Shown here in pieces: positions 2,583 to 46,966 of a DNA stretch of 64,000 nucleotides. The translations under genes and the position numbers were made by a program. The DNA comes from Mycetocola zhujimingii (GTDB lineage Bacteria; Actinomycetota; Actinomycetes; Actinomycetales; Microbacteriaceae), in NCBI RefSeq assembly GCF_003065425.1, contig NZ_CP026949.1:372001-436000 (forward strand), read 5' to 3'. The notes under the pieces were generated by a model. That model did not search any database and was not told where the DNA came from. It was given only the letters and a program-made list of their open reading frames with translations. Each line of letters begins with the position of its first letter. Position 1 is the stretch's first letter.

Positions 2583-4124
2583 ATGACGAGCCAGAAGACC
2601 GAACAGGGTCTCTCGAAGAAGGGCCTCAGCGCCGGTTCCGTCGGCCTGATCGGGGCTGTCGTCATCGGGATCTCCTGCATCGCCCCTGCGTACACGATGA
2701 CGGCCGCGCTCGGGCCGACGGTGTCCGAGGTCGGCCTGCAGGTGCCTGCCATCATCCTCGTCGGCTTCATCCCGATGCTGCTGGTCGCCTTCGGCTACCG
2801 CGAGCTCAACCGGGCGATGCCAGACAGCGGAACCTCGTTCACCTGGGCTACCCGGGCGTTCGGGCCGTGGATCGGCTGGATGACGGGATGGGGCCTCATC
2901 GCGGCTACCATTCTCGTTCTGTCGAACCTCGCCGGCATTGCCGTCGACTTCTTCTACCTCATGCTCGCGCAGATTTTCGGCAATCCCGACCTGGCTGACC
3001 TCGCGCTCAATCCGGTGATCAACGTCGTTACCTGCCTCACCTTCATGCTCGTGGCCACGGCGATCTCCTACCGCGACATGCAGACGACCCAGAAGGTGCA
3101 GTACGTTCTCGTCGGCTTCCAGCTGATCGTGCTCGTGATCTTCGGTATCGCCGCGTTCATCCACGTCGCCAACGGTTCGGCCTTCGATGCGGTGCCGGTG
3201 AGCCTCGAGTGGTTCAACCCGTTTGCCGTCGAGTCGTTCAGCGCGTTCGCGGCGGGACTCTCGCTGTCGATCTTCATCTTCTGGGGGTGGGATGTCACTC
3301 TGACGATGAACGAGGAAACCCGCGGCTCGAGGTCAACACCCGGGCGGGCGGCGACTCTCACCGTGTTCATCATCGTGGTGCTGTACCTGCTCATCGCGAC
3401 GGCGTCGATCAGCTTCGCCGGCATCGGAACGGGAGAGTTCGGACTCGGCAACGAGGAGATTCAGGGCAACGTGTTCTTCGCGCTCGCTGGACCTGTGCTC
3501 GGGCCACTCGCCATTCTCGTGTCGATCGCGGTGCTCTCCAGCTCGGCGGCATCCCTGCAGTCGACGTTCGTGTCGCCGGCCCGGACCCTCCTCGCGATGG
3601 GCCACTACGGGGCTCTGCCCGAGCGATTCTCCCGGGTCAGCCCGCGGTTTCTCACGCCGGGCTTCGCGACGATCGTGTCGAGCATCGTGGCGAGCGCGTT
3701 CTACGCGATCATGCGATTCGTCTCGGAGGATGTGCTGTGGGACACGATCACCGCTCTCGGCATGATGATCTGCTTCTACTACGGGCTCACGGCGTTCGCG
3801 GCGGTCTGGTATTTCCGGAAGCAGGTCTTCGCGTCGACGCGCAACTTCTTCTTCCAGTTGCTTTTTCCGCTCGTCGGCGGGGTCATCCTCGCGGCGCTGT
3901 TCTTCACGACAATCATCGAGAGCATGGACCCGGAGTACGGTTCGGGGTCGAACATCGGCGGGGTGGGCCTCGTGTTCATCCTCGGGATGGCCGTCATCGT
4001 CTCAGGCATCGTGATCATGATCATCCAGGCGATCAGACGGCCGGCGTTCTTCCGGGGCGAGACGCTCGGCAGGGGAGTGTCTGACGGGAAGGAGGACGAG
4101 GAGCTGGACGAGCTGCCGGTGTAG
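2583..4124 (+). CDS. APC-family amino acid/polyamine permease
   Basis: About 513 residues with roughly 12 hydrophobic segments. The first membrane segment has the GLIGAVVIGISCIAPAYT stretch typical of APC transporters, and the C-terminus ends in an acidic cytoplasmic tail (DGKEDEELDELPV). ATG 2583 follows GAGGACTAAGG, which doubles as ribosome binding site across the upstream stop. Its operon partners are a Usp protein, an amine oxidase and an aldehyde dehydrogenase, so the likely substrate is putrescine or a related amine imported for oxidation. The family is clear, the substrate inferred. Confidence 0.85.
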   Translation: MTSQKTEQGLSKKGLSAGSVGLIGAVVIGISCIAPAYTMTAALGPTVSEVGLQVPAIILVGFIPMLLVAFGYRELNRAMPDSGTSFTWATRAFGPWIGWMTGWGLIAATILVLSNLAGIAVDFFYLMLAQIFGNPDLADLALNPVINVVTCLTFMLVATAISYRDMQTTQKVQYVLVGFQLIVLVIFGIAAFIHVANGSAFDAVPVSLEWFNPFAVESFSAFAAGLSLSIFIFWGWDVTLTMNEETRGSRSTPGRAATLTVFIIVVLYLLIATASISFAGIGTGEFGLGNEEIQGNVFFALAGPVLGPLAILVSIAVLSSSAASLQSTFVSPARTLLAMGHYGALPERFSRVSPRFLTPGFATIVSSIVASAFYAIMRFVSEDVLWDTITALGMMICFYYGLTAFAAVWYFRKQVFASTRNFFFQLLFPLVGGVILAALFFTTIIESMDPEYGSGSNIGGVGLVFILGMAVIVSGIVIMIIQAIRRPAFFRGETLGRGVSDGKEDEELDELPV

Positions 4125-4160
4125 CGCCATGGCGAACCGACGCGGCGATAGGCTTCAGCC

Positions 4161-4658
4161 ATGTTTCGCCGCTATCGCCGCATCGCGTGGCAGTCGCCGC
4201 TCGTCGGGTTCGTGGTCAGCGCCGGGTTGTTCCTGCTCATTGTTCTCCCCAGCGCGATCGGCCAGCCGTGGAGATTTTCTCTCGGCGAAACGGTGCGCTC
4301 GATCCTTACCTGGGGACTGATTGGTGTCGCCGTCGCGCTCACCGCCCTGCTCGGTGGCATGGGTGCGATCGCGATCCTTGATCGTGGCCTCACGCACACG
4401 TCATTGTTCCGGGTGTCATGGGCGGGGATCGGTGCCGGTCTGGCTGTCTGTGCCGGGTGGCTCATCGTTGGCCTGATCGAGAGTGCGCCGGGTTGGCTGG
4501 GTGGTTATCTCATGCTCGGTGCCGTCGCGGGAATCATCGCGGCGATCGCGGCCGCCGCTCTGGTGAACCGGGCCGAACGGCGGGCTGCTGACGCACCAGT
4601 TGCTCACCCGCTCGACGCCGATCGGCCGGATCTGCCCGTCGGCGAGCAGTCCGCGTGA
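4161..4658 (+). CDS. Small integral membrane protein, unknown function
   Basis: 165 residues with four predicted membrane helices (about residues 14-34, 48-68, 83-105, 112-136) and a polar C-terminal tail. I recognise no family. Its stop overlaps the GTG start of the following APC permease by 4 bases, so translation is probably coupled and the product may assist or regulate that transporter. The start is ATG 4161; no strong Shine-Dalgarno sequence is visible. Confidence 0.6.
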   Translation: MFRRYRRIAWQSPLVGFVVSAGLFLLIVLPSAIGQPWRFSLGETVRSILTWGLIGVAVALTALLGGMGAIAILDRGLTHTSLFRVSWAGIGAGLAVCAGWLIVGLIESAPGWLGGYLMLGAVAGIIAAIAAAALVNRAERRAADAPVAHPLDADRPDLPVGEQSA

Positions 4659-6968: not shown

Positions 6969-7020
6969 GATCACTCCATCCACAGGGGTTTGGCCAGAGT
7001 TTAGTCCGCCGCCCGTGACG

Positions 7021-7110
7021 TTGCTCCGTCAGAAATGGCTCAAGCAGACTTTGCTCCGCCACAAACGGCTGCGTTTTGTCACGAAATGCAACCGTTTCCG
7101 ACCACGCAAC
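7021..7110. repeat. Solitary diverged copy of the 30-bp repeat unit
   Basis: Two adjacent 30-base units begin with TTGCTCCG at 7021 and 7051 (each containing AAATGGCT or AAACGGCT), followed by CACGAAATGCAACCGTTTCCG. The order and spacing match the large array at 44861-45720, where CACAAACGGCTGCGTTTG is followed by CACGAAAGGCGACCCTTTC. Read on the minus strand, both encode VAFR..TQPFVAE. This copy sits in the leader region of the SDR gene and downstream of yajQ. It is a remnant or founder of the same repeat family. Confidence 0.65.
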
Positions 7111-12688: not shown

Positions 12689-13096
12689 TCAGCGACCCGT
12701 CTGAGTTGCGTCGACCGCAAGAAGGATTACACCAAGGATCGCAGACACGATGAGGACCCATTGAATGCGCTGCTGATGCCGGGACATCTCAGGCCCAGAC
12801 ATGGAAATGTTGATGTCGTATTCGTCGAGTGCGGGGCCGGCGCTCGAGATGCCGTAGTGGCTGAGCATCCGTTTCTCGAAAGCCTGATTCTCTTCCAGGG
12901 CAACGATGGACGCAGGCGTTCCATCGGCCCTCGGACGCGCTCTGGCCTCGACCTCGTCGGACTGCGCACGGACGAGTTTCGCCACCTTCACTCGTATCCG
13001 ACGCTCCTCAGCGAGCCGCCACTGCTCGACCAGCGTGGACGCTGCCGCATAGACGGAAGCAGCGATAGGGATCAACGCAGCAAGCAACGTACGCAC
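12689..13096 (-). CDS. Membrane protein with two terminal helices, unknown
   Basis: 135 residues. Hydrophobic helices lie at the N-terminus (LLAALIPIAASVYAAAST) and C-terminus (VLIVSAILGVILLAV), with a charged, probably coiled middle rich in Arg and Glu. I recognise no family. It is oriented against the capsid genes and its start faces the ADP-ribosyltransferase-like gene across a 166-base gap containing a palindrome. It resembles small membrane proteins often carried as prophage cargo. Confidence 0.5.
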   Translation of the reverse strand: MRTLLAALIPIAASVYAAASTLVEQWRLAEERRIRVKVAKLVRAQSDEVEARARPRADGTPASIVALEENQAFEKRMLSHYGISSAGPALDEYDINISMSGPEMSRHQQRIQWVLIVSAILGVILLAVDATQTGR

Positions 13097-13172
13097 ATAT
13101 GCAGGCTAGCGACTTCCAAGCAGCAGAGGACGCACCCGAATCGCCATAAAATTCCGCCTCGCCCCGACCCCC

Positions 13173-13197
13173 GGACCACTCCCCGCCTGAGTGGTCC
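13173..13197. promoter_or_regulatory. Palindrome in the divergent gap
   Basis: GGACCACT (13173-13180) and AGTGGTCC (13190-13197) form a perfect 8-bp inverted repeat with a 9-base spacer, lying between the divergent starts at 13096 and 13263. It could be an operator or a hairpin in the plus-strand leader. Confidence 0.4.
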
Positions 13198-13262
13198 TCT
13201 CTCCCCGGTTGGGACCCCCCATCACGCGCGTGCGAGAACTCTCATCGAGAAAGGTGTCTGCC

Positions 13263-14069
13263 TTGAACATCACCCCGTCGGTGAACCTCACCCCGTCGGT
13301 GAACCTCACCCCGTCGGTGAACCTCACCCCGTCGGCGCTGTGGGACGCGTACGAGCGGGGTTTCCGTGGGATGGACTTTAATTGCGCGGTTCTCGAGACG
13401 TGGCCGCGGCATTGGATTCCGCCGCTCGACTTAGAACCCTGGCAGTGGGTCGAGATGTTCCGCCGCTGTCACGACGTCGCGCACGACACACGCTTCCAGC
13501 AGCTCGCGGATGTTCCGCCGCTGGTGTTCCGGGGATCGTCTCTCGCTGGCTGCGGTGGCATCTCGTGGACTCAGGATCTGCGCACAGCACGTCGGTCTGC
13601 GCATCGATCGGTGTTCCGGGAGGACCGGCCGGCGGCTGTGTGGGTGGTGGAGGTCTCACCGAGCATGGTTCTCGCGCTGCCGTCTGACCAGGAGGTGGTG
13701 CTGGACCTCGGGGATGCCGTGCCGGTGCAGTTTGAGGCTCCTGTGGAGTCCTGGGCGGGTTTCGCGATGAGCTGGGGATTCGTCAGGCGGGGAGAAGCAG
13801 TGTCCAGATGCTGGCGGCTGCCCCGAGGAACACTCCGAGCCCGATATAGACGAAGTCCGCCACGGCTGCTTGAGGGCGACCCTCGGTTGCGCGATGGGCG
13901 ATCTGTAGCAGAACAGCAGACTGATCAATGGTCGGCATGTCTGGCTCGTCGTTCGGCTGGCCGGGACCGCCGTAGGTTGCTGCGGAGTACTCTCTCGCGT
14001 CCCTCGTGGCAGTGCGATACAGCCCCCATAGGCCCAAGAGCGGCAACAGTGCCGATAAGACGTACATGA
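13263..14069 (+). CDS. Putative ADP-ribosyltransferase-fold protein with N-terminal hexapeptide repeats
   Basis: 268 residues from TTG 13263 (AGAAAGGTG upstream). Residues 2-25 are four NLTPSV-type repeats. The middle shows the order expected of R-S-E ADP-ribosyltransferases: PPLVFRGSS (Arg), GGISWTQDLRTA (Ser-Trp-Thr), then a strand and DQEVVLDLGDA (candidate catalytic Glu). Phage and toxin proteins of this fold modify host proteins or nucleic acids. The last 90 codons lie antisense to the membrane-protein gene at 13783-14097 and look unlike a real domain (Arg-rich, low complexity), so the authentic stop may have been lost. The fold call rests on motif spacing only. Confidence 0.45.
   Translation: MNITPSVNLTPSVNLTPSVNLTPSALWDAYERGFRGMDFNCAVLETWPRHWIPPLDLEPWQWVEMFRRCHDVAHDTRFQQLADVPPLVFRGSSLAGCGGISWTQDLRTARRSAHRSVFREDRPAAVWVVEVSPSMVLALPSDQEVVLDLGDAVPVQFEAPVESWAGFAMSWGFVRRGEAVSRCWRLPRGTLRARYRRSPPRLLEGDPRLRDGRSVAEQQTDQWSACLARRSAGRDRRRLLRSTLSRPSWQCDTAPIGPRAATVPIRRT
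13266..13337 (+). repeat. Four tandem 18-bp repeats inside a coding region
   Basis: Four copies of AACCTCACCCCGTCGGTG (the first with ATC instead of CTC, the last ending GCG) run head to tail. Each encodes Asn-Leu-Thr-Pro-Ser-Val. The near identity of the copies points to recent slippage and possible length variation among strains. Confidence 0.85.
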
Positions 14070-37737: not shown

Positions 37738-37804
37738 ATGAGGGAGCTACTCGCGGTGTGGCCCGGCGAGGGGACCTACTCGCTGTGCAACTCGGCGAGG
37801 GGAC

Positions 37805-38368
37805 CTACTCGCCCGGCTTGGCTTTCGGGGCTTTCGGCTCCTTGGGTTCTTTGGGCGCCTTGGGTTCCTTCTCGTTGTTCCCGTTCCCGTTGCCGTTGCC
37901 GGGCCCGTCGGGTTCCGACTCGTCCGGCTCGGACTCATCCGGCTCGTCTTCGTTTTCCTCGTCGGGGACCGGAGTCGTTGGGCTCACGGGCGTGACGGTC
38001 GTTGTCGGTTGCGGCTCCGGTTCGACGGGCGCCGGGGCCTGTGCAGCCAGTGCGGCGTCGACATCGGCGAGCACCGCGGCCAGTGCCGCGTCGATGCGCT
38101 TGTGCCGAGCGAACGAGACGGAGCCGTCTGCGGCTGCCTCCTCGAGTTCAGTGTCGAACGTCGTGAGCGTGTCACGCGCGAGCTGCAGTTCGCCGTCGGC
38201 CACGGCCTGCGTGACGGTGAGCACTGTCGCCTGGAACCGCGTCGCGGCGTCAGCGTCGAGGTCGGGTGCGCTCGACTGGCACCCCGTCAGAGCGACGACA
38301 CCCAGCGCTGACGCGAGCATGAGCGGCGCCACACGGGAGCGGGGGCGGGCAGTGAAACGGGTGCTCAT
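37805..38368 (-). CDS. Lipoprotein with Lys/Pro-rich C-terminal tail
   Basis: 187 residues. Signal peptide with LTGC lipobox at about residues 27-30; a helical domain (DADAATRFQATVLTVTQAV to about residue 110); then Thr/Pro and acidic low complexity (DEPDESEPDESEPDG), GNGNGNGN, and a KEPKAPKEPKEPKAPKAKPG tail. It sits on the outer membrane face, and the cationic tail may bind teichoic acids or peptidoglycan. It overlaps the kinase gene stop by 4 bases, so it is translationally coupled to a Ser/Thr kinase and probably signals with it. Confidence 0.75.
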   Translation of the reverse strand: MSTRFTARPRSRVAPLMLASALGVVALTGCQSSAPDLDADAATRFQATVLTVTQAVADGELQLARDTLTTFDTELEEAAADGSVSFARHKRIDAALAAVLADVDAALAAQAPAPVEPEPQPTTTVTPVSPTTPVPDEENEDEPDESEPDESEPDGPGNGNGNGNNEKEPKAPKEPKEPKAPKAKPGE

Positions 38369-39684
38369 GGTGTCACGCTCTTCTGGAGTTCATCAAGGTG
38401 CTCGCCGATCTCGCCGGGCACCGCGGGGTAGTCGACGGACGCTGGCTCAGTAGTACCGCCCAGGGCGACCCCAAGCGCGACGGCGACCGCTATCACCACG
38501 GCAGCTGCCGCTGCCACGAGCGTCGGCGTCAACCCCATGCGGTGGCGCGGCCGTGTGGACTCCGTCGTCGCGGACCCCGACGTCGCGGGCGCAGACGCTG
38601 CGTGCGCAGACACTGTGCGCGCAGACGTTGCGGGTGCCGACGCCGACGCCGCAGTCGCGGACGCAACGGTCACGGCATCCGTCGCGAACTCACGAGACGT
38701 GCCGGGCGTGAGAAGCGCCGTCGATGCCGTTCCGGGTCCCGATGCTTCGGGAAGCAGCACGGTGGGGGAGCCGGTGTCGCCGACGGTCATCGCCGCGGTC
38801 GCCTCGTCGGGGTCTGCCGCCGACCGATAAGCGCCGAGTCGCTGGATGCCGCGAAGTGCGAGTGCGACCTCGTGGGCGCTCGGTCGGTTGGCGGGCAGCC
38901 GCGCGGTCATGGCGGCGAGAGTCTCGGCGAGCAGCGGGTCGAGATCATCCGGCAGCACGGGGTCTCGCGTCAGCGGAGCGAGCGCCGCGTGCTGCCCTGA
39001 CCCGGAGAATGCGCGACGGCCGGTCGCGCACTCGAGAAGCACCAGGCCGAGGGAGTACACGTCGCTCGCCGGTCCGACGTCTTCTCCGCGGGCCTGTTCC
39101 GGGCTGAGATACCCCGCGGAGCCGACGGTGAAGTGCGTCGCCGTGATGCGAGTGCCATCCACCAGCCGGGCGATGCCGAAGTCGCTGAGTTTCGGGTGCG
39201 GACGGGTGTCGTTGCCCGCCGTGTGGGCGAGCAGGATGTTCGCCGGTTTCACGTCGCGGTGCACAACGCCGCGGTCGTGAATGTAGTTCAGGGCGTCGGC
39301 GAGGTCGGCACCGATGTGCCGGGTGTCGTCGGCGCTGAGCGCCCCAGCAGCGAGCCCCTCACGGAGGTCGGACCCTCGGATGAGTTCCATCACGAGGTAG
39401 GAGCGCGGATGCAGGGGGTCGCTCTCATCGGTTCCGGCGTCGAGCAGCGTGACGAGGCCGGGGTGGGCCAGGCTCGCGAGCAGTGAGATCTCGCCCTGCT
39501 GCCGACGGAAGTCACCGGGCGACGCGGATGCCGGCGAGAAAAGTTTGACGGCGACGTCACGCTGCAGCGACTCGTCGCGGGCACGGTACACCGAGGCCAT
39601 GCCGCCGGCGCCGATGAGTGCGAGCAGGCGGTATCGCCCCGACAGCGTCAGGTCGAGCGGGCGTGCGTGTGAGATCTCGGTCAT
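38365..39684 (-). CDS. Transmembrane serine/threonine protein kinase
   Basis: 439 residues. Kinase domain about 15-280: GAGGMASVYRARD (P-loop), VAVKLF (Lys), HRDVKPANILL (catalytic loop), LSDFGIARLV (DFG) and SAGYLSPEQARGEDV (activation/APE region). A long Ala/Thr/Ser linker follows, then one membrane helix (LVAAAAAVVIAVAVALGVAL) and a short outer tail; no PASTA repeats. ATG 39684 has GGAAGG upstream. It is followed directly by a lipoprotein that could be its external sensor or partner. PknB-type family; targets unknown. Confidence 0.9.
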   Translation of the reverse strand: MTEISHARPLDLTLSGRYRLLALIGAGGMASVYRARDESLQRDVAVKLFSPASASPGDFRRQQGEISLLASLAHPGLVTLLDAGTDESDPLHPRSYLVMELIRGSDLREGLAAGALSADDTRHIGADLADALNYIHDRGVVHRDVKPANILLAHTAGNDTRPHPKLSDFGIARLVDGTRITATHFTVGSAGYLSPEQARGEDVGPASDVYSLGLVLLECATGRRAFSGSGQHAALAPLTRDPVLPDDLDPLLAETLAAMTARLPANRPSAHEVALALRGIQRLGAYRSAADPDEATAAMTVGDTGSPTVLLPEASGPGTASTALLTPGTSREFATDAVTVASATAASASAPATSARTVSAHAASAPATSGSATTESTRPRHRMGLTPTLVAAAAAVVIAVAVALGVALGGTTEPASVDYPAVPGEIGEHLDELQKSVTP

Positions 39685-41205: not shown

Positions 41206-43874
41206 GTCCCCGGCTGCCGCGCGCGGCTGAGCTGCGCTCACCCGCGACCCTTCCTCCGCTTGGCCTCGACGGGCTTGACCCCGCCTTCTCCCGGATTGTG
41301 ACGGCGACGGATGCTGCGGCATCCGTTTCGCGCGACTGGCACGTTCTCGACAACGCCGACCGCCTCGCCGAACTCGGTGTAACACCCGTGGGCACCATTC
41401 TCTGCGTGCACGGCAACCCGACCTGGTCGTACCTCTGGCGCCGTCTGGTGTCGAAGGCGACGGATGCTGCCGCGAACGGTGGCGAGGCGTGGCGTGTTAT
41501 CGCTGTGGACCAGCTGGACATGGGGTTCTCTGAGCGCACCGGTGAGCGTCGACCGCTCGCGCAGCGCGTTCGCGACCTCGGTGCGCTCACCGACGCGCTC
41601 GAACTCGACGGACCTGTGTTCACCCTCGGACACGACTGGGGCGGTGTCGTGTCGCTCGGCTGGGCCGTCGACCACCCCGACCTGCTCGCCGGTGTGATGC
41701 TGCTCAACACGGCGGTGCACCAGCCGGAGGCCGACCCGATTCCTGCGCCGCTGCGGCTCGCGCTCCAGCCCGCGCTGCTCGGCAAAGCCACTGTCGCGAC
41801 TCCCGCGTTCCTCGAGACGACGCTCGCCCTTGCGCACCCGGCGCTGCCGAAGGCCGTCAAGGACGGCTACCGCGCGCCATACAGCGACGCGACCCGACGC
41901 GTCGGCATCGGCGGTTTCGTCGCCGACATCCCCGTCGACGCCGATCACGAGAGCTTTGCTGAACTCACCCGCATCTCCTCGGGGGTCGCTCAGCTCACTG
42001 TCCCCGCGCTCATGCTGTGGGGCCCGCGCGACCCGATCTTCAGCGACAAGTACCTCGACGACCTCATCGACCGGTTGCCGCACGCCGATGTGCACCGGTT
42101 CGAGGGTGCAGGACACCTGGTTGCCGAAGATGTGGACTATGCCGGTGCCGTCCTGACCTGGCTGGCCGACGGCATCCGTTCTGCGAGTACCGATTCTGCC
42201 GCCGCAACGGCTGCCGCCGCCGACGTTGACCGTCAGCCGCTGTGGCACTACCTCGACGAAATGCGCGACAGTGACGACACTGTCGTGGTGGACATGGTGC
42301 CGCCCACGGGCGATGAGCCGCGCGTGGTCAGCTGGAAGCTGCTGTCGCGACGGGTCCGCCAGATCGCCGCTGGACTTTCCGCGATCGGTGTGAAGAAGGG
42401 CGACCGGGTGTCGCTGCTGATTCCGCCGAGCGCCGACCTCGTTGCCGTGCTGTACGCGTGCCTGCGGATCGGCGCGATTGTCGTCGTCGCCGACGCTGGG
42501 CTCGGTCTCAAGGGACTCACCCGTGCTGTGCGCGGCGCGTGCCCCGACCACATCATTGGTGCGGCTACCGGCCTTGCTGCGGCGCGTGCGCTCGGCTGGC
42601 CTGGCCAGAAGATCTCAACGGCGACGTTCCCTGCGCCGGTGCGCCGGGCTCTCGACATTTCGTACTCCCTGTCTGACCTGATCTCGCTCGGTTCCGACGA
42701 GATCATGCCTGAGCCTCCCGCGCCGACCGACACCGCTGCCGTGCTGTTCACCTCCGGCTCCACCGGACCGGCGAAGGGCGTCGTCTACACCCACGCCCAG
42801 CTGTCCGCTGTGCGTGACGCGCTCGCCGCCCAGTACGGAGTCGGGGTCGGAACCGGACTCGTCGCCGGCTTTGCACCGTTCGCGCTGCTCGGCCCGGCGC
42901 TCGGCGCCCGGTCGGTCACGCCCGACATGGACGTGACCTCTCCCAAGACCCTCACCGCGACCGCCGTCGCCGCAGCGGTCGCCGCGGTCAATGCCACAGT
43001 CGTGTTCCTCTCACCGGCCGCCGTCGCGAATGTTGTCGCGACCGCCGGCGAGCTGACGGATGCCGACGGCGAGGCCCTCGCTGGCGTTGAGCGGTTCCTC
43101 TCAGCCGGTGCTCCGGTCTCAGAGCCGCTGCTCGCCGCGATCTCGGCGCTCATGCCCAACGCGACGGCGCATACCCCCTACGGCATGACCGAGGGTCTGC
43201 TGATGACGGACATCACGCTCGACGGCATCCGTGAGGCTGCGGCTGAAGCCGGTGCTGGCGGCGTCTGCGTCGGTACGCCGACGGGGGTCACGCGTGTGCG
43301 CATCGCGCCGCTCGACGAGACCGGCCGCTCCACCGAAGAACTCACCGACGAGCCCAACGTCACCGGCGAGATCATCGTCTCCGCGCCGCACGTCGAAGAC
43401 CACTACGACCGGCTCTGGCTGACCCACCGGGCCAGCCGCCGCGGGGGAGTGCCGGGAGAACGCTGGCACCGCACCGGCGACGTCGGCCACCTTGACTCGG
43501 CCGGACGGCTCTGGGTCGAGGGGCGGATGCCGCACGTGATCGCGACAGCGAACGGTGTGCTCACGCCGGTCGGACCCGAACAGGCCATCGAGCGGCTGCA
43601 CGAGATCGCTCGCGCCGGTGTCGTCGGGGTCGGCCCTGACGGAAACCGCCAGGTCGTCGCTGTCGTCGAAACCGTGCCACCGGCTCGGAGTGTGTCGCTC
43701 GCGACGCCCGAGCTTGCCACTGCGATCCGCGGCATGGTCGACGTTCCGATCGCGGCTGCCCTCGTGGTTCCGCGGTTGCCAACCGACATCCGTCACAATT
43801 CCAAGATCAACCGTTCGGCGCTGTCCGACTGGGCTGGCGACATCCTCGCCGGCGGGCGGATGACCCACCCGTGA
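41202..43874 (+). CDS. OleB-OleC fusion: beta-lactone decarboxylase and beta-lactone synthetase
   Basis: 890 residues. Residues 1-325 are a haloalkane-dehalogenase-like alpha/beta hydrolase (HGNPTWSYLWRRL, nucleophile LGHDWGG at D145, GAGHLV His): OleB, which decarboxylates the beta-lactone to the alkene. Residues from about 350 on are an AMP-forming synthetase (LFTSGSTGPAKGVVYTH, PYGMTEGLL, RTGDVGHLD): OleC, which makes the beta-lactone with ATP. Such OleBC fusions are known in actinobacteria such as Micrococcus. GTG 41202 overlaps oleA's stop by 4 bases; the frame is open upstream of that but antisense-like. Next gene overlaps by 4. Confidence 0.92.
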   Translation: MSPRLPRAAELRSPATLPPLGLDGLDPAFSRIVTATDAAASVSRDWHVLDNADRLAELGVTPVGTILCVHGNPTWSYLWRRLVSKATDAAANGGEAWRVIAVDQLDMGFSERTGERRPLAQRVRDLGALTDALELDGPVFTLGHDWGGVVSLGWAVDHPDLLAGVMLLNTAVHQPEADPIPAPLRLALQPALLGKATVATPAFLETTLALAHPALPKAVKDGYRAPYSDATRRVGIGGFVADIPVDADHESFAELTRISSGVAQLTVPALMLWGPRDPIFSDKYLDDLIDRLPHADVHRFEGAGHLVAEDVDYAGAVLTWLADGIRSASTDSAAATAAAADVDRQPLWHYLDEMRDSDDTVVVDMVPPTGDEPRVVSWKLLSRRVRQIAAGLSAIGVKKGDRVSLLIPPSADLVAVLYACLRIGAIVVVADAGLGLKGLTRAVRGACPDHIIGAATGLAAARALGWPGQKISTATFPAPVRRALDISYSLSDLISLGSDEIMPEPPAPTDTAAVLFTSGSTGPAKGVVYTHAQLSAVRDALAAQYGVGVGTGLVAGFAPFALLGPALGARSVTPDMDVTSPKTLTATAVAAAVAAVNATVVFLSPAAVANVVATAGELTDADGEALAGVERFLSAGAPVSEPLLAAISALMPNATAHTPYGMTEGLLMTDITLDGIREAAAEAGAGGVCVGTPTGVTRVRIAPLDETGRSTEELTDEPNVTGEIIVSAPHVEDHYDRLWLTHRASRRGGVPGERWHRTGDVGHLDSAGRLWVEGRMPHVIATANGVLTPVGPEQAIERLHEIARAGVVGVGPDGNRQVVAVVETVPPARSVSLATPELATAIRGMVDVPIAAALVVPRLPTDIRHNSKINRSALSDWAGDILAGGRMTHP

Positions 43875-44842
43875 GAGTCCTCGTCACCGGTGCGAGCGGG
43901 TTGCTCGGGCGTGCTGTCGCCGCCGAGATCCGCTCGGCCGGTCACGAAGTGACGACCTTCCAGAGGCGTCCATCCGGCGTCGATGGCGTCACCGACGTGC
44001 TCGGTTCGGTCACCGAAACGGATGCTGTCGCTCGCGCGGTCGCGGACCAGGACGCGATCGTGCACCTCGCCGCGAAGGTGTCACTCGCCGGTGACCCGGC
44101 CGATTTCGACCGCATCAACGTCGGCGGGACTCGCAACCTGCTGGCCGCGGCATCCGCGTCGGGGATCGGGAAGTTCGTGTTCGTGTCGTCGCCGTCCGTG
44201 GCGCACGCCGGGACGTCGATCGTGGGCGATGACGCGTTGCCCGCCGACCCGGAGCATGTTCGCGGCGACTACGCGCGGACCAAGGCCGAGGCCGAGCTGA
44301 TCGCGCTTGCCGCTGACTCGCCCGAGCTTCGGGTCGTTGCCGTTCGGCCGCACCTCGTCTGGGGTCCCGGTGACACGCAGCTCGTCGCGCGGGTCGTCGA
44401 GCGCGCTCGAGCCGGGCGGCTGCCGCTGCTCGATTCGGGTGCGGCGCTCATCGACACGATCTACATCGACAACGCGGCGTCGGGCATCGCAGCCGCGCTC
44501 GAGCGGGTCGATGCCGTCCACGGCAACTCGTACGTGCTGACCAATGGCGAACCGCGGCCGGTGGCCGAGCTGCTCGCCGGTATTTGTGGTGCTGCCGGGG
44601 TCGCGGCACCACGCTGGAGTGTGCCAGCGGGGCTGGCCCGCGGTGCCGGTTCGCTCATCGAGCGGGCGTGGCGCATCAAGCCCGGCGTTGACGAGCCGCC
44701 GATGACGCGGTTCCTGGCCGAGCAGCTGTCGACGGCGCACTGGTTCGACCAGCGCCGGACGCGCGCCGACCTCGAGTGGACCCCCGCCGTGTCGCTCGAC
44801 GAGGGCTTCCGTCGCCTGGCGGACTCGTACCGCACCTCCTGA
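43871..44842 (+). CDS. oleD: OleD, 2-alkyl-3-ketoalkanoate reductase
   Basis: 323 residues, extended SDR from GTG 43871. VLVTGASGLLGRAVAAEIRS is the NADPH-binding motif, VHLAAKVSLAGDPADF and FVSSPSVAH the SDR core, and DYARTKAEAE the Tyr-x-x-x-Lys active site. It reduces the OleA product to the beta-hydroxy acid before OleC. Its GTG overlaps oleBC's stop. It ends just before the 30-bp repeat array. Confidence 0.9.
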   Translation: MRVLVTGASGLLGRAVAAEIRSAGHEVTTFQRRPSGVDGVTDVLGSVTETDAVARAVADQDAIVHLAAKVSLAGDPADFDRINVGGTRNLLAAASASGIGKFVFVSSPSVAHAGTSIVGDDALPADPEHVRGDYARTKAEAELIALAADSPELRVVAVRPHLVWGPGDTQLVARVVERARAGRLPLLDSGAALIDTIYIDNAASGIAAALERVDAVHGNSYVLTNGEPRPVAELLAGICGAAGVAAPRWSVPAGLARGAGSLIERAWRIKPGVDEPPMTRFLAEQLSTAHWFDQRRTRADLEWTPAVSLDEGFRRLADSYRTS

Positions 44843-44860
44843 CGCACCCCGCGCTCCCTC

Positions 44861-45720
44861 GCGCGGCCGCAAAAGGCTGCGCGGCATCCCGTGCTCGGTC
44901 ACAAACGGCTGCACCAATCCGCGCTCGGTCACAAACTGCTGAACGAACCCGCGCGCGGTCACAAATGGCTCAACGAACCCGCGCTCGGTCACAAAATGGC
45001 TCAATGAGCCCGCGCGCGGCCACAAACGGCTGCGTTTGCGCACGAAAGGCGACCCTTTCTGTCCGAGCAGGGGATGCCTGCGGGGTGAACGCCCGTTTAT
45101 GGCTGAGCAAAGGTGGCGGGGCGCGTGGGCGGGCGCAAATGGTTGCGCGGCATCCTGCGCGGCCACAAACGGCTGAACGAACCCGCGCGCGGCCACAAAT
45201 GGCTGAACGAGCCCGCGCTCGGCCACAAACGGCTGCGTTTGCGCACGAAAGGCGACCCTTTCTGTCCGAGCAGGGGATACCTGCGGGGCGAACGACCATT
45301 TCTGGCCGAGCAAAGGTGGCGGGGCGCGTGCGCGGTCGCAAATGGTTGCGCGGCATCCTGCGCGGCCACAAACGGCTGAACGAGCCCGCGCGCGGCCACA
45401 AACCGCTGTGTTTGCGCGCGAGGGGCGACCGTTTTTGTCCGAGCGGGGGATGCCTGCGGGGCGAACGACCGTTTATGGCCGAGCAAAGGTGGCGGGGGTT
45501 GCTCGGCCACAAACGGCTGCACCAATCCGCGCTCGGTCACAAACGGCTGAACGAACCCGCGCGCGGCCACAAACGGCTGAACACACCCGCGCTCGGTCAC
45601 AAACGGCTGCACCAATCCGCGCTCGGTCACAAATGGCTGGGTTCGGGCGCGAAACGCGACCTTTTCTGTCCGAGCAGGGGATGCCTGCGGGGTGAACGAC
45701 CGTTTATGGCCGAGCAAAGG
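44861..45720. repeat. Tandem array of 30-bp units in four superunits
   Basis: About 18 units of the type CGGTCACAAACGGCTGAACG plus AACCCGCGCG run head to tail, arranged in four superunits (about 44861-45122, 45123-45329, 45330-45499, 45500-45720). Each superunit starts with a degenerate unit (GCAAATGGTTGCGCGGCATCC in three), then 2-5 units, then GAAAGG-CGA-CCCTTTC (hairpin), GCAGG-GGATG-CCTGC (hairpin), and ends with an inverted unit (CGACCGTTTATGGCCGAGCA). A related solitary copy is at 7021-7110. Units are contiguous without spacers, unlike CRISPR. Function unknown. The 900-base interval contains no other gene. Confidence 0.85.
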
Positions 45721-45763: not shown

Positions 45764-46966
45764 TCAGCTCCCGACGACGTCCGCCCAGGCGGTGCGGTCG
45801 ACGATGAGCTGCCGCCACTGGCGCAGCGCCTTCGCGGCGCCGACACCGAGTGCACCGACCACCCGGTCACCCCGGCGGAACACGGCGATCATCCGGCGTT
45901 CAACGAGCGAACCCTCCAGGATCCGCACCTCGTCATACCCCTTGATCCACCCGTGCACCTGCAGTTTGAGGTCGTACTGGTCGGTCCAGAAGTAGGGCAC
46001 CGAGGCGAAGGCATCCGGCGCTCCGTCGAGCAATCGCCCGGCGACGTGCACAGCCTGCTCGGTCGCGTTCGTGCGGTGCTCGACCCGCATCGACTGGTCG
46101 AATGCCGGGTTGTCCCAGCGCGCCACATCACCGGCGGCATAAACGCCGGGTGCCGCGGACAGGTCAGGCGCGCACTCGACCCCGTCGCCCAGCCGCAGCC
46201 CGCTGCCGGCCAGCCAGCCGATCGCCGGCGTCGCACCGATCGCTACGAAAACGACATCCGCCCCGAGCCGCGAACCGTCGGCAAACTCGACGCCGGTCAC
46301 CCGACCGTCCGCTGCCACCAGCGAGCGGACCGCAGACGCAGCTCCGGTCCGCAGCTCGACACCGTGAAGCCTGTGCAGTGCGGCCACCTCGGCGCCGATC
46401 GCCGGGCCGAGCCCGCGTTCGAGCGGCGTGGGCAGAGCATTCACTAGGGTGACGGTGAGCCCGAGTCCGACGGCAGCGGCCGCAACCTCGGTACCGAGAA
46501 AACCGCCGCCGACGATCACGAGGTGCCGCCCGGCGACGAGTTCTTCCTTCAGCCCGAGCGCATCGTCGAGGGTGCGAAGGGTGTGAACTCCTGCGAGGTG
46601 CGTCGAGTCGGGCAGTACCCGCGGTGTCACGCCCGTCGCGACGACGAGGCGATCGAACGCGAGGTCCGTGGCATCCGACAGCGACACAACGGAACGACCG
46701 ATGTCGAGCCCCGTCGCCGTCACGCCCGAACGGATGCTCACCCCCAGCGCAGCGAGGTCGGCGTCGGTCTTCAACCCAATGCGTTCCGGTCCCCACTCGC
46801 CGGTGAGCAGCTGCTTGGCGAGGGGCGGCCTATCGTACGGCGTGTGGCGTTCACTGTCCACGAGCGTCAGCGCGCGGTCGTACCCGTTGCGGCGGAGCGC
46901 AGCGGCGGTGGTCAGCCCGGCGGCCGACGCCCCGACGATGACGATATGGGAGGGAGCGTCGCTCAC
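45764..46966 (-). CDS. Ferredoxin reductase (FAD/NAD-dependent)
   Basis: 400 residues. Two dinucleotide-binding motifs: IVIVGASAAGLTTAAALRRNG (FAD, N-terminal) and VIVGGGFLGTEVAAAAVGLG (NAD, about residues 145-165); GVYAAGDVARW is the second FAD site. The RPPLAKQLL segment and C-terminal reductase domain fit rubredoxin/ferredoxin reductases of the class I monooxygenase type. It moves electrons from NADH to ferredoxin. Its ATG overlaps the stop of the ferredoxin gene, so both are co-translated. No P450 is in the window. Confidence 0.9.
   Translation of the reverse strand: MSDAPSHIVIVGASAAGLTTAAALRRNGYDRALTLVDSERHTPYDRPPLAKQLLTGEWGPERIGLKTDADLAALGVSIRSGVTATGLDIGRSVVSLSDATDLAFDRLVVATGVTPRVLPDSTHLAGVHTLRTLDDALGLKEELVAGRHLVIVGGGFLGTEVAAAAVGLGLTVTLVNALPTPLERGLGPAIGAEVAALHRLHGVELRTGAASAVRSLVAADGRVTGVEFADGSRLGADVVFVAIGATPAIGWLAGSGLRLGDGVECAPDLSAAPGVYAAGDVARWDNPAFDQSMRVEHRTNATEQAVHVAGRLLDGAPDAFASVPYFWTDQYDLKLQVHGWIKGYDEVRILEGSLVERRMIAVFRRGDRVVGALGVGAAKALRQWRQLIVDRTAWADVVGS

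Follow-up and report, generated by a model that had tools for sequence, protein, structure and literature searches.

The DNA analysed here is a 64,000-nucleotide stretch of the Mycetocola zhujimingii genome (contig NZ_CP026949.1, positions 372,001 to 436,000; hereafter the window), in which a large repeat array at 44858–45718 is made up of 18 forward and eight inverted half-sites of about 25 bp (TTGCTCGGNCRNAAANGGYYG) in four superunits. Arrays of such half-sites occur at at least about 30 intergenic places in this genome (G000), and the same half-sites flank a gene for a protein in which an AbiEi-type DNA-binding module is joined to a nuclease-like domain. The association of gene and arrays is strong, and from the sequences we put at about 0.66 the probability that the arrays are dispersed recognition arrays of this cognate AbiEi-nuclease protein, a pairing like that of RAYT proteins and REPINs built from unrelated parts.

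Two facing half-sites form a dyad core with a fixed 36-bp turn, from which extra half-sites extend outwards at helical steps. In the mechanism that we propose, the AbiEi-nuclease protein would bind those arrays that share half-sites with the flanks of its gene, and the flanking arrays themselves would regulate that gene, as AbiEi proteins do. Its nuclease-like domain may then nick or cut the DNA, after which recombination would copy arrays to new intergenic sites and lengthen them.

The protein is about 284 amino acids long; comparison with the G004 orthologue suggests that in G000 translation may begin some 16 codons further upstream. Its second domain resembles I-Bth0305I and Vsr (EDxHD), with a predicted EDxHD/Vsr-type fold and a conserved acid/histidine signature. 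Pfam matches to the AbiEi-nuclease proteins are weak and fall in different members (DUF559 0.22, AbiEi_1 0.017, REase_MTES_1575 0.012), NCBIfam gave no match to them, and a PDB sequence search with the family profile returned nothing at E ≤ 10. An orthologue of the gene is present in 6 of 6 Mycetocola species, its neighbours being the same genes across the four species compared (G000, G002, G003 and G005), and half-sites lie beside it in all six. In 5 of 5 species tested (G004 had too few units), the gene-side units of the window's type, S1, agree most closely with the dispersed units from the same species.

Layout and dispersal of the arrays

The initial annotation had given the sequence and extent of the window array correctly, and its count of about 18 units in four superunits agrees with the 18 forward half-sites found here. 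Unit calling with a weight matrix at 44858–45718 gave 24 units, 16 forward and eight inverted, to which two weaker forward half-sites were added, one at about 44980 recognised by eye (it carries a one-base insertion) and one at 45387 that falls below the matrix cut-off. The superunits hold 6, 4, 3 and 5 forward half-sites, and each is closed by two inverted half-sites in place of the single inverted unit first described. The two short hairpins reported at these ends also dissolve into the same parts, the GAAAGG/CCTTTC pair being the turn that leads into the first inverted half-site and the GCAGG/CCTGC pair the end of that half-site together with the spacer ahead of the second. The half-site itself is asymmetric and bipartite, with GCTCGGNC followed by GG about one helical turn onward. 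A diverged copy reported near 7021–7110 proved to be real, and like the large array it is intergenic (Table 1).

The array is not a product of chance, since a 20-base pattern with up to two mismatches matches its own genome 146 times and the reversed pattern 8 times. A search of family genomes for the unit, which had been proposed earlier, found the family in all six Mycetocola genomes (115, 15, 20, 26, 3 and 59 matches with up to one mismatch on both strands; reversed controls 0–2), and the tandem half-site pattern matches the genome of Mycetocola zhadangensis. Among 299 family genomes searched at up to one mismatch, those outside the genus gave 0–2 matches (controls 0–4), with a pattern that undercounts at this setting: gene-side arrays in G001 and G004 emerged only in a later scan. 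The weight matrix called 517 units in loci from six species and the window against 18 on reversed sequence, a figure that describes loci chosen for holding the motif and is not a genome-wide density.

Across the six species, 84 clusters of at least two half-sites were mapped, and the order within a superunit is strict, with forward half-sites first and inverted ones after. Of 108 turns from forward to inverted, 100 measure exactly 36 bp, the rest being 37 bp (one), 65–66 bp (six, with one unit missed) and 96 bp (one). Same-strand spacings (n = 278) measure 28–32 bp in 196 cases, 39–42 bp in 64 and 35–38 or 43–49 bp in three, and these classes differ by about 11 bp, which is one helical turn. 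Forward and inverted half-sites are unequal in number in many arrays.

Nearly all clusters (83/84) are free of an overlap of at least 30% by a predicted gene, as judged with the crude gene caller of this analysis. Their gaps are convergent in 32 cases, co-directional in 40 and divergent in 10 of 82 (chi-square p = 1e-4), two further clusters of unknown gap context standing outside this count, and of the 31 arrays listed 20 are at most 450 kb from dnaA (p = 3e-5), which weakens to 10 of 18 once neighbours are merged (p = 0.014). The enrichment of convergent gaps, the depletion of divergent ones and the lean towards the origin would suit sites of chromosome architecture, at which a nucleoid-associated or gyrase-like factor acts at gene 3′ ends, much as REP/BIME-like supercoil or insulation sites near the origin might. 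We consider this quite unlikely, as it leaves unexplained why the motif brackets one gene family whose paralogues bear other repeats. Nor are the arrays parS sites: parS-like sequences (up to three mismatches) were found in L192 only of six loci, and in none of the array loci L084, L085, L107 and L182. L192 itself has, near the origin, a dense parS-like cluster at 2916–4623 (about G000:C1:3155.9–3157.6 kb), with seven places at 0–1 mismatch.

The suggestion that the arrays are mobile fares unevenly, in that many of them occupy equal positions across species and empty sites also occur. For 31 of the 84 clusters there is a counterpart in another species with both neighbouring genes orthologous, and in directional comparisons the site was empty in 5 cases and filled in 48, the loci having mostly been picked because they carry arrays. 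The 54 proteins that flank the G000 arrays are diverse in a Pfam tally of their 25 commonest families, and no large paralogous gene family stood out beside the arrays, the largest groups being ABC transporters (no statistical test was applied). Phage records gave no match to the array, plasmid records a single 34-base match on a Rhizobium plasmid (E 4e-4) and viral contigs one match to the core pattern, inside a 435-codon open frame; an origin of the arrays from phages or plasmids was rejected on this near-absence of matches.

Table 1. Positions of the arrays and associated features (window coordinates unless a genome is named)
Feature	Location	Strand	Remarks
Whole array, four tandem superunits	44858..45718	.	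between two convergent genes
Superunit 1	44858..45111	.	forward 44858, 44890, 44920, 44950, (~44980, 1-bp insertion), 45011; inverted 45047, 45087; matrix scan, 44980 by eye
Superunit 2	45124..45314	.	forward 45124, 45154, 45184, 45214; inverted 45250, 45290
Superunit 3	45327..45487	.	forward 45327, 45357, 45387 (weak); inverted 45423, 45463
Superunit 4	45498..45718	.	forward 45498, 45528, 45558, 45588, 45618; inverted 45654, 45694
Example 61-bp core	45011..45071	.	innermost forward and innermost inverted half-site; 25-bp windows start 36 bp apart
Small array of the same family	7020..7110	.	forward 7020, 7050; inverted 7086 (36-bp core)
Left neighbour, NAD-dependent epimerase-like	43871..44842	+	Pfam Epimerase; outside the element, marks the orthologous gap; orthologue in 6/6 genus genomes
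Right neighbour, pyridine nucleotide-disulphide oxidoreductase with reductase C-terminus	45764..46966	-	Pfam; convergent with left neighbour
AbiEi-nuclease gene	G000:C1:215843-216694		about 200 kb from the window array; flanked by the same half-sites
Epimerase gap, S1 type (the window's type)	G000, G003, G005
Epimerase gap, GATCGGTCCCAAARGG type	G001, G002
Epimerase gap, further types next to S1	G005, G003

The large window array fills the convergent gap between the epimerase and oxidoreductase genes, and in the corresponding gap of G004 no array was seen. Elsewhere in the G000 genome, L095:1–600 (G000:C1:1278500–1279100) contains five copies, about 103 bp apart, of a palindrome CGTCTGTCACAAAGTGCGCTTAT... 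with a gap of 22–23, which probably represents another subfamily; it came out of a de novo search for inverted repeats at other offsets, which was otherwise too noisy to use. The window has two other repeat stretches. At 13264–13335 an 18-bp unit occurs four times within the open frames 12761–13381 (+) and 13191–14069 (+) and is probably coding, and at 37742–38642 several short tandem repeats lie in or beside a minus-strand lipoprotein-like frame (37805–38368), with a kinase-like frame adjoining, and look by eye like a low-complexity protein tail.

Paralogues, their repeats and other genera

Each genome of the genus holds 5–7 matches to the AbiEi-nuclease protein, the orthologue included. Of the 29 paralogue places found, 24 were retrieved and 22 of these enter the counts (L249 and L250, not placed by tblastn, were left out). 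Inverted repeats (at least 17/23, offset 33–48) are present at 18 of 22 paralogue flanks compared with 27 of 152 control genes that were unmatched for gap length and include ordinary terminators (p = 4.5e-9), and an 11-mer in at least five copies is present at 8 of 22 flanks against 1 of 60 controls. By eye the repeats differ between orthologue groups, for example CGCGAGTTGCC in one and CGTGCATTTGCGACC beside another paralogue. Several paralogues thus have other repeats at their flanks, which makes it appear that subfamilies of arrays are matched to cognate paralogues.

The epimerase gap offers some further examples, with motifs that were picked by eye from the paralogue flanks after this gap was known and then counted in the fetched DNA. 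The motif of the G003 paralogue is found twice in the G003 gap and not at all in the fetched DNA of the other five species. For the G005 paralogue's motif there are three copies in the G005 gap and one in G000. The G002 paralogue's motif has one copy in the gap of G002, two in that of G001 and one beside the paralogue of G005. The remaining motifs stay beside their own or orthologous genes, with single exceptions in G000 L105 and G002 L134; CGCGAGTTGCC also occurs once in the window and twice in G001 L154.

Two sets of loci bear on how specificity may change. L247, L253 and L263 (G000, G001 and G005) are apparently one chromosomal place, judged by eye from the similar transporter sequence next to them, with a paralogue in each species and differing repeat motifs, so that specificity seems to change while the locus stays. 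L259 (G003) and L262 (G005) are apparent orthologues with the flank half-sites AGTACCAGTTG and AGTGACACTTG, which keep a similar GGGT end, and this pair is good material for a study of protein–DNA recognition.

A bolder version of the proposed pairing is a self-spreading system, in which each AbiEi-EDxHD paralogue would recognise its own half-site, nick or cut the dyad and drive the copying of its arrays into intergenic sites, the specificities of protein and array changing together; we hold this to be possible but doubtful. If true, what spreads in such a nuclease-plus-array system would be its many short target arrays and not the gene, independently of a transposase. The pairing of paralogues with private repeats would also give fusions of AbiEi with Vsr/DUF559-like domains a concrete, testable target, and would supply natural sets of protein and DNA-site variants from which changes of recognition could be read.

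Outside Mycetocola, a sequence model of the core matches 33 of 293 other family genomes at E ≤ 0.01, compared with about three by chance. Many of the 23 such loci inspected are single palindromes GGNCGCAAANGG-N23-CCNTTTGCGNCC or near to this, and at least five are not (L167, L173, L175, L188 and L189). Among the matches listed, which include ordinary terminators, the 23-base gap is found in 31 of 58 within the family outside the genus against 4 of 21 outside the family (p = 0.0096); 20 of those 31 come from four multi-copy genomes (G102, G314, G172 and G157). Counted per genome among the matches listed, the figures are 15 of 40 against 4 of 20 (p = 0.24), or 11 of 38 without the four multi-copy genomes (p = 0.54), and as these are not significant, a shared spacing beyond the genus rests on few multi-copy genomes. 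Three of the 53 loci fetched on a model or pattern match hold a member of the AbiEi-nuclease family (L172 in G040, L204 in G172 and L219 in G258), each with like palindromes on both sides of it, for which they had not been selected, and independently of Mycetocola. At contig ends in G157 (L165 and L174) there are two palindromes of the family type, one with a fold-back to the contig end; such palindromes may interrupt assemblies, and copy numbers counted in draft genomes could then be underestimates.

Several observations weigh against recognition of the arrays by the AbiEi-nuclease protein. On the side of the protein, the Foldseek matches are weak (E 0.14–0.16 for I-Bth0305I), the N-terminal 30 or so residues are poorly modelled, and no AbiEii-type toxin gene was recognised among the five G000 neighbours, which are a glutamate-type dehydrogenase, a diacylglycerol kinase-like protein, seryl-tRNA synthetase, a HAD hydrolase and a 134-amino-acid protein without a family. 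On the side of the arrays, the gene-side half-sites of G004 are weak (scores 14.9–15.7), and arrays of one subfamily or another also occupy the epimerase gap in 5 of 6 species, so the 6 of 6 counted at the AbiEi-nuclease gene does not stand alone. In 18 pairs of cores at shared positions the motif is 93% identical, an upper figure for cores found by motif, and the remainder 43–44%. The motif in the G001 epimerase gap resembles that of the G002 paralogue and not that of G001's own, some paralogue repeats may be terminators, and outside Mycetocola the count, three of 53 loci, is small. In the fetched DNA most paralogue motifs turned up nowhere but next to the gene they belong to, S1 alone being widely dispersed, and operator and dispersed array could thus be separate things.

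The last point leads to an alternative in which the flank repeats are autoregulatory operators and the dispersed arrays were spread by recombination or an unidentified transposase, acting at most as titrating decoys. AbiEi proteins do autoregulate through inverted repeats, as described in PMC7319586, and the restriction of most paralogue repeats to their own gene would follow naturally. We nevertheless regard this alternative as unlikely, because the dispersed arrays keep both position and motif across species (in cores found by motif) and share a species-specific consensus with the gene flanks, neither of which is needed for passive copies.

Duplex DNA, RNA or peptide

Considering the nature of the element, the initial annotation had offered a structured DNA or RNA element and a degenerate minus-strand peptide repeat, and of these it is the dispersed DNA family with a fixed layout that stands. 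Long open frames do span the array, as GC-rich repeats lead one to expect, but each of the three frames takes a share of the 278 same-strand spacings (126, 92 and 60), so there is no shared peptide repeat. Such frame-breaking spacings were the very observation on which the fate of the peptide reading had been made to depend, and together with the inverted units and the intergenic position of 83 of 84 clusters they lead us to reject it and to give it a negligible likelihood.

The folding check proposed earlier gave a mixed answer. The cores give more stable folds than their shuffles, with a mean z of −3.6 to −5.0 for the five species that had 20 folds or more (G004 −1.4 with two folds), as any inverted repeats do, and their arms do not covary. 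At variable positions, true partners (96 cores) have an arm complementarity of 0.484 against 0.495 when shuffled within the genome, and 0.464 against 0.457 when the true partner is compared with the next inverted unit (66 cores); RNAalifold found no consensus structure and no pairs in the cores. With species pooled there are signs in favour of pairing, which tell against a reading on DNA alone: 71.4% of cells are paired, where shuffles give 69.3% and none of 500 reaches the observed value, and the covariation score was reached by 1 of 500 shuffles. Within genomes two inner positions have a slight pairing excess (z 2.1 and 2.7), and as the arms taken together show no excess there, the pooled one reflects species consensus. 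An RNA hairpin in Mycetocola was rejected on the within-genome permutation and the non-partner control, and an Rfam scan of the window at gathering score returned three tRNAs only, with no RNA family at the arrays.

It might still be supposed that the cores are bidirectional terminators or structured RNA elements, as they are inverted repeats, fold better than shuffles and favour gene 3′ ends, and as arm pairing outside Mycetocola exceeds what is expected (at one position 24 of 31 against 12, although the pattern choosing those 31 fixes the outer arms). Besides the missing covariation within Mycetocola genomes, there is no wobble bias on the transcribed strand at co-directional loci (112 vs 99, p = 0.41), extra half-sites stand unpaired in helical spacing, and 21 of 64 facing gaps already hold a separate strong hairpin ahead of the array (3.5 in shuffles), so that we find such a role very unlikely. 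The missing arm covariation and the unequal numbers of forward and inverted half-sites instead point to half-sites that are read one by one on duplex DNA.

Comparison with known systems

The initial annotation knew of no described family with such a layout, and in the open-access literature (subscription papers being mostly outside it) we likewise found none, nor any description of the arrays or of their pairing with the gene, nor anything on what fusions of AbiEi with a Vsr/DUF559-like domain do. PMC3733652 gave no match for terms such as actinobacterial names.

The nearest known repeats are the REPINs, which PMC3116915 describes as short, dispersed, extragenic inverted doublets with a less conserved middle of fixed length, and the REPIN or REP-BIME repeats with their RAYT resemble the present arrays in forming clusters and in having a resident gene close to the cognate repeats. 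The arrays too are extragenic (83/84 clusters) and near a resident gene (6/6 species). Unlike in REPINs, the half-sites are not palindromic themselves, extra unpaired half-sites stand in helical register and the linked protein is an AbiEi-EDxHD fusion. A RAYT (Y1, PF01797) was found in 0 of 12 array-bearing genomes by a search that was positive in 5 of 14 control genomes, and membership of RAYT/REPIN was rejected for want of both a Y1 transposase and compensatory arm changes in Mycetocola.

Known AbiEi sites, according to PMC7319586, are inverted pairs of about 23 bp bound by monomers: the Streptococcus agalactiae AbiEi binds two 23-bp inverted repeats 3 bp apart, and Rv2827c of Mycobacterium tuberculosis binds 23-bp inverted repeats that lie 13 bp apart within the pair. 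The 36-bp turn, which was established before this comparison, fits 23 + 13 bp if the half-site is taken as positions 1–23 of the 25-bp window; this fit depends on the choice of site ends (other 23-bp choices give 34 or 38) and concerns geometry only and not the operator sequence, which lessens what it can say for the proposed pairing. AbiEi operators are promoter operators of a toxin–antitoxin operon, whereas the present arrays are dispersed and number in the dozens, and the linked protein has a nuclease-like domain fused to its AbiEi module. With regard to Type IV AbiE, the AbiEi-type protein is there, and an adjacent gene for the AbiEii nucleotidyltransferase toxin is not recognised among the G000 neighbours.

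With EDxHD homing endonucleases and Vsr the AbiEi-nuclease protein shares, as modelled, the fold and the catalytic residues. Unlike a homing endonuclease gene, its gene is not inserted at the target (the orthologue is present in 6/6, with neighbours kept in four), and it carries an AbiEi module. The system is thus one that would work like RAYT/REPIN and is a member of neither the REPINs, AbiE nor the classic homing endonucleases. It would bring a second protein class, unrelated to the first, into the pattern known from RAYT/REPIN, in which scattered palindromes go together with a resident DNA-acting gene.
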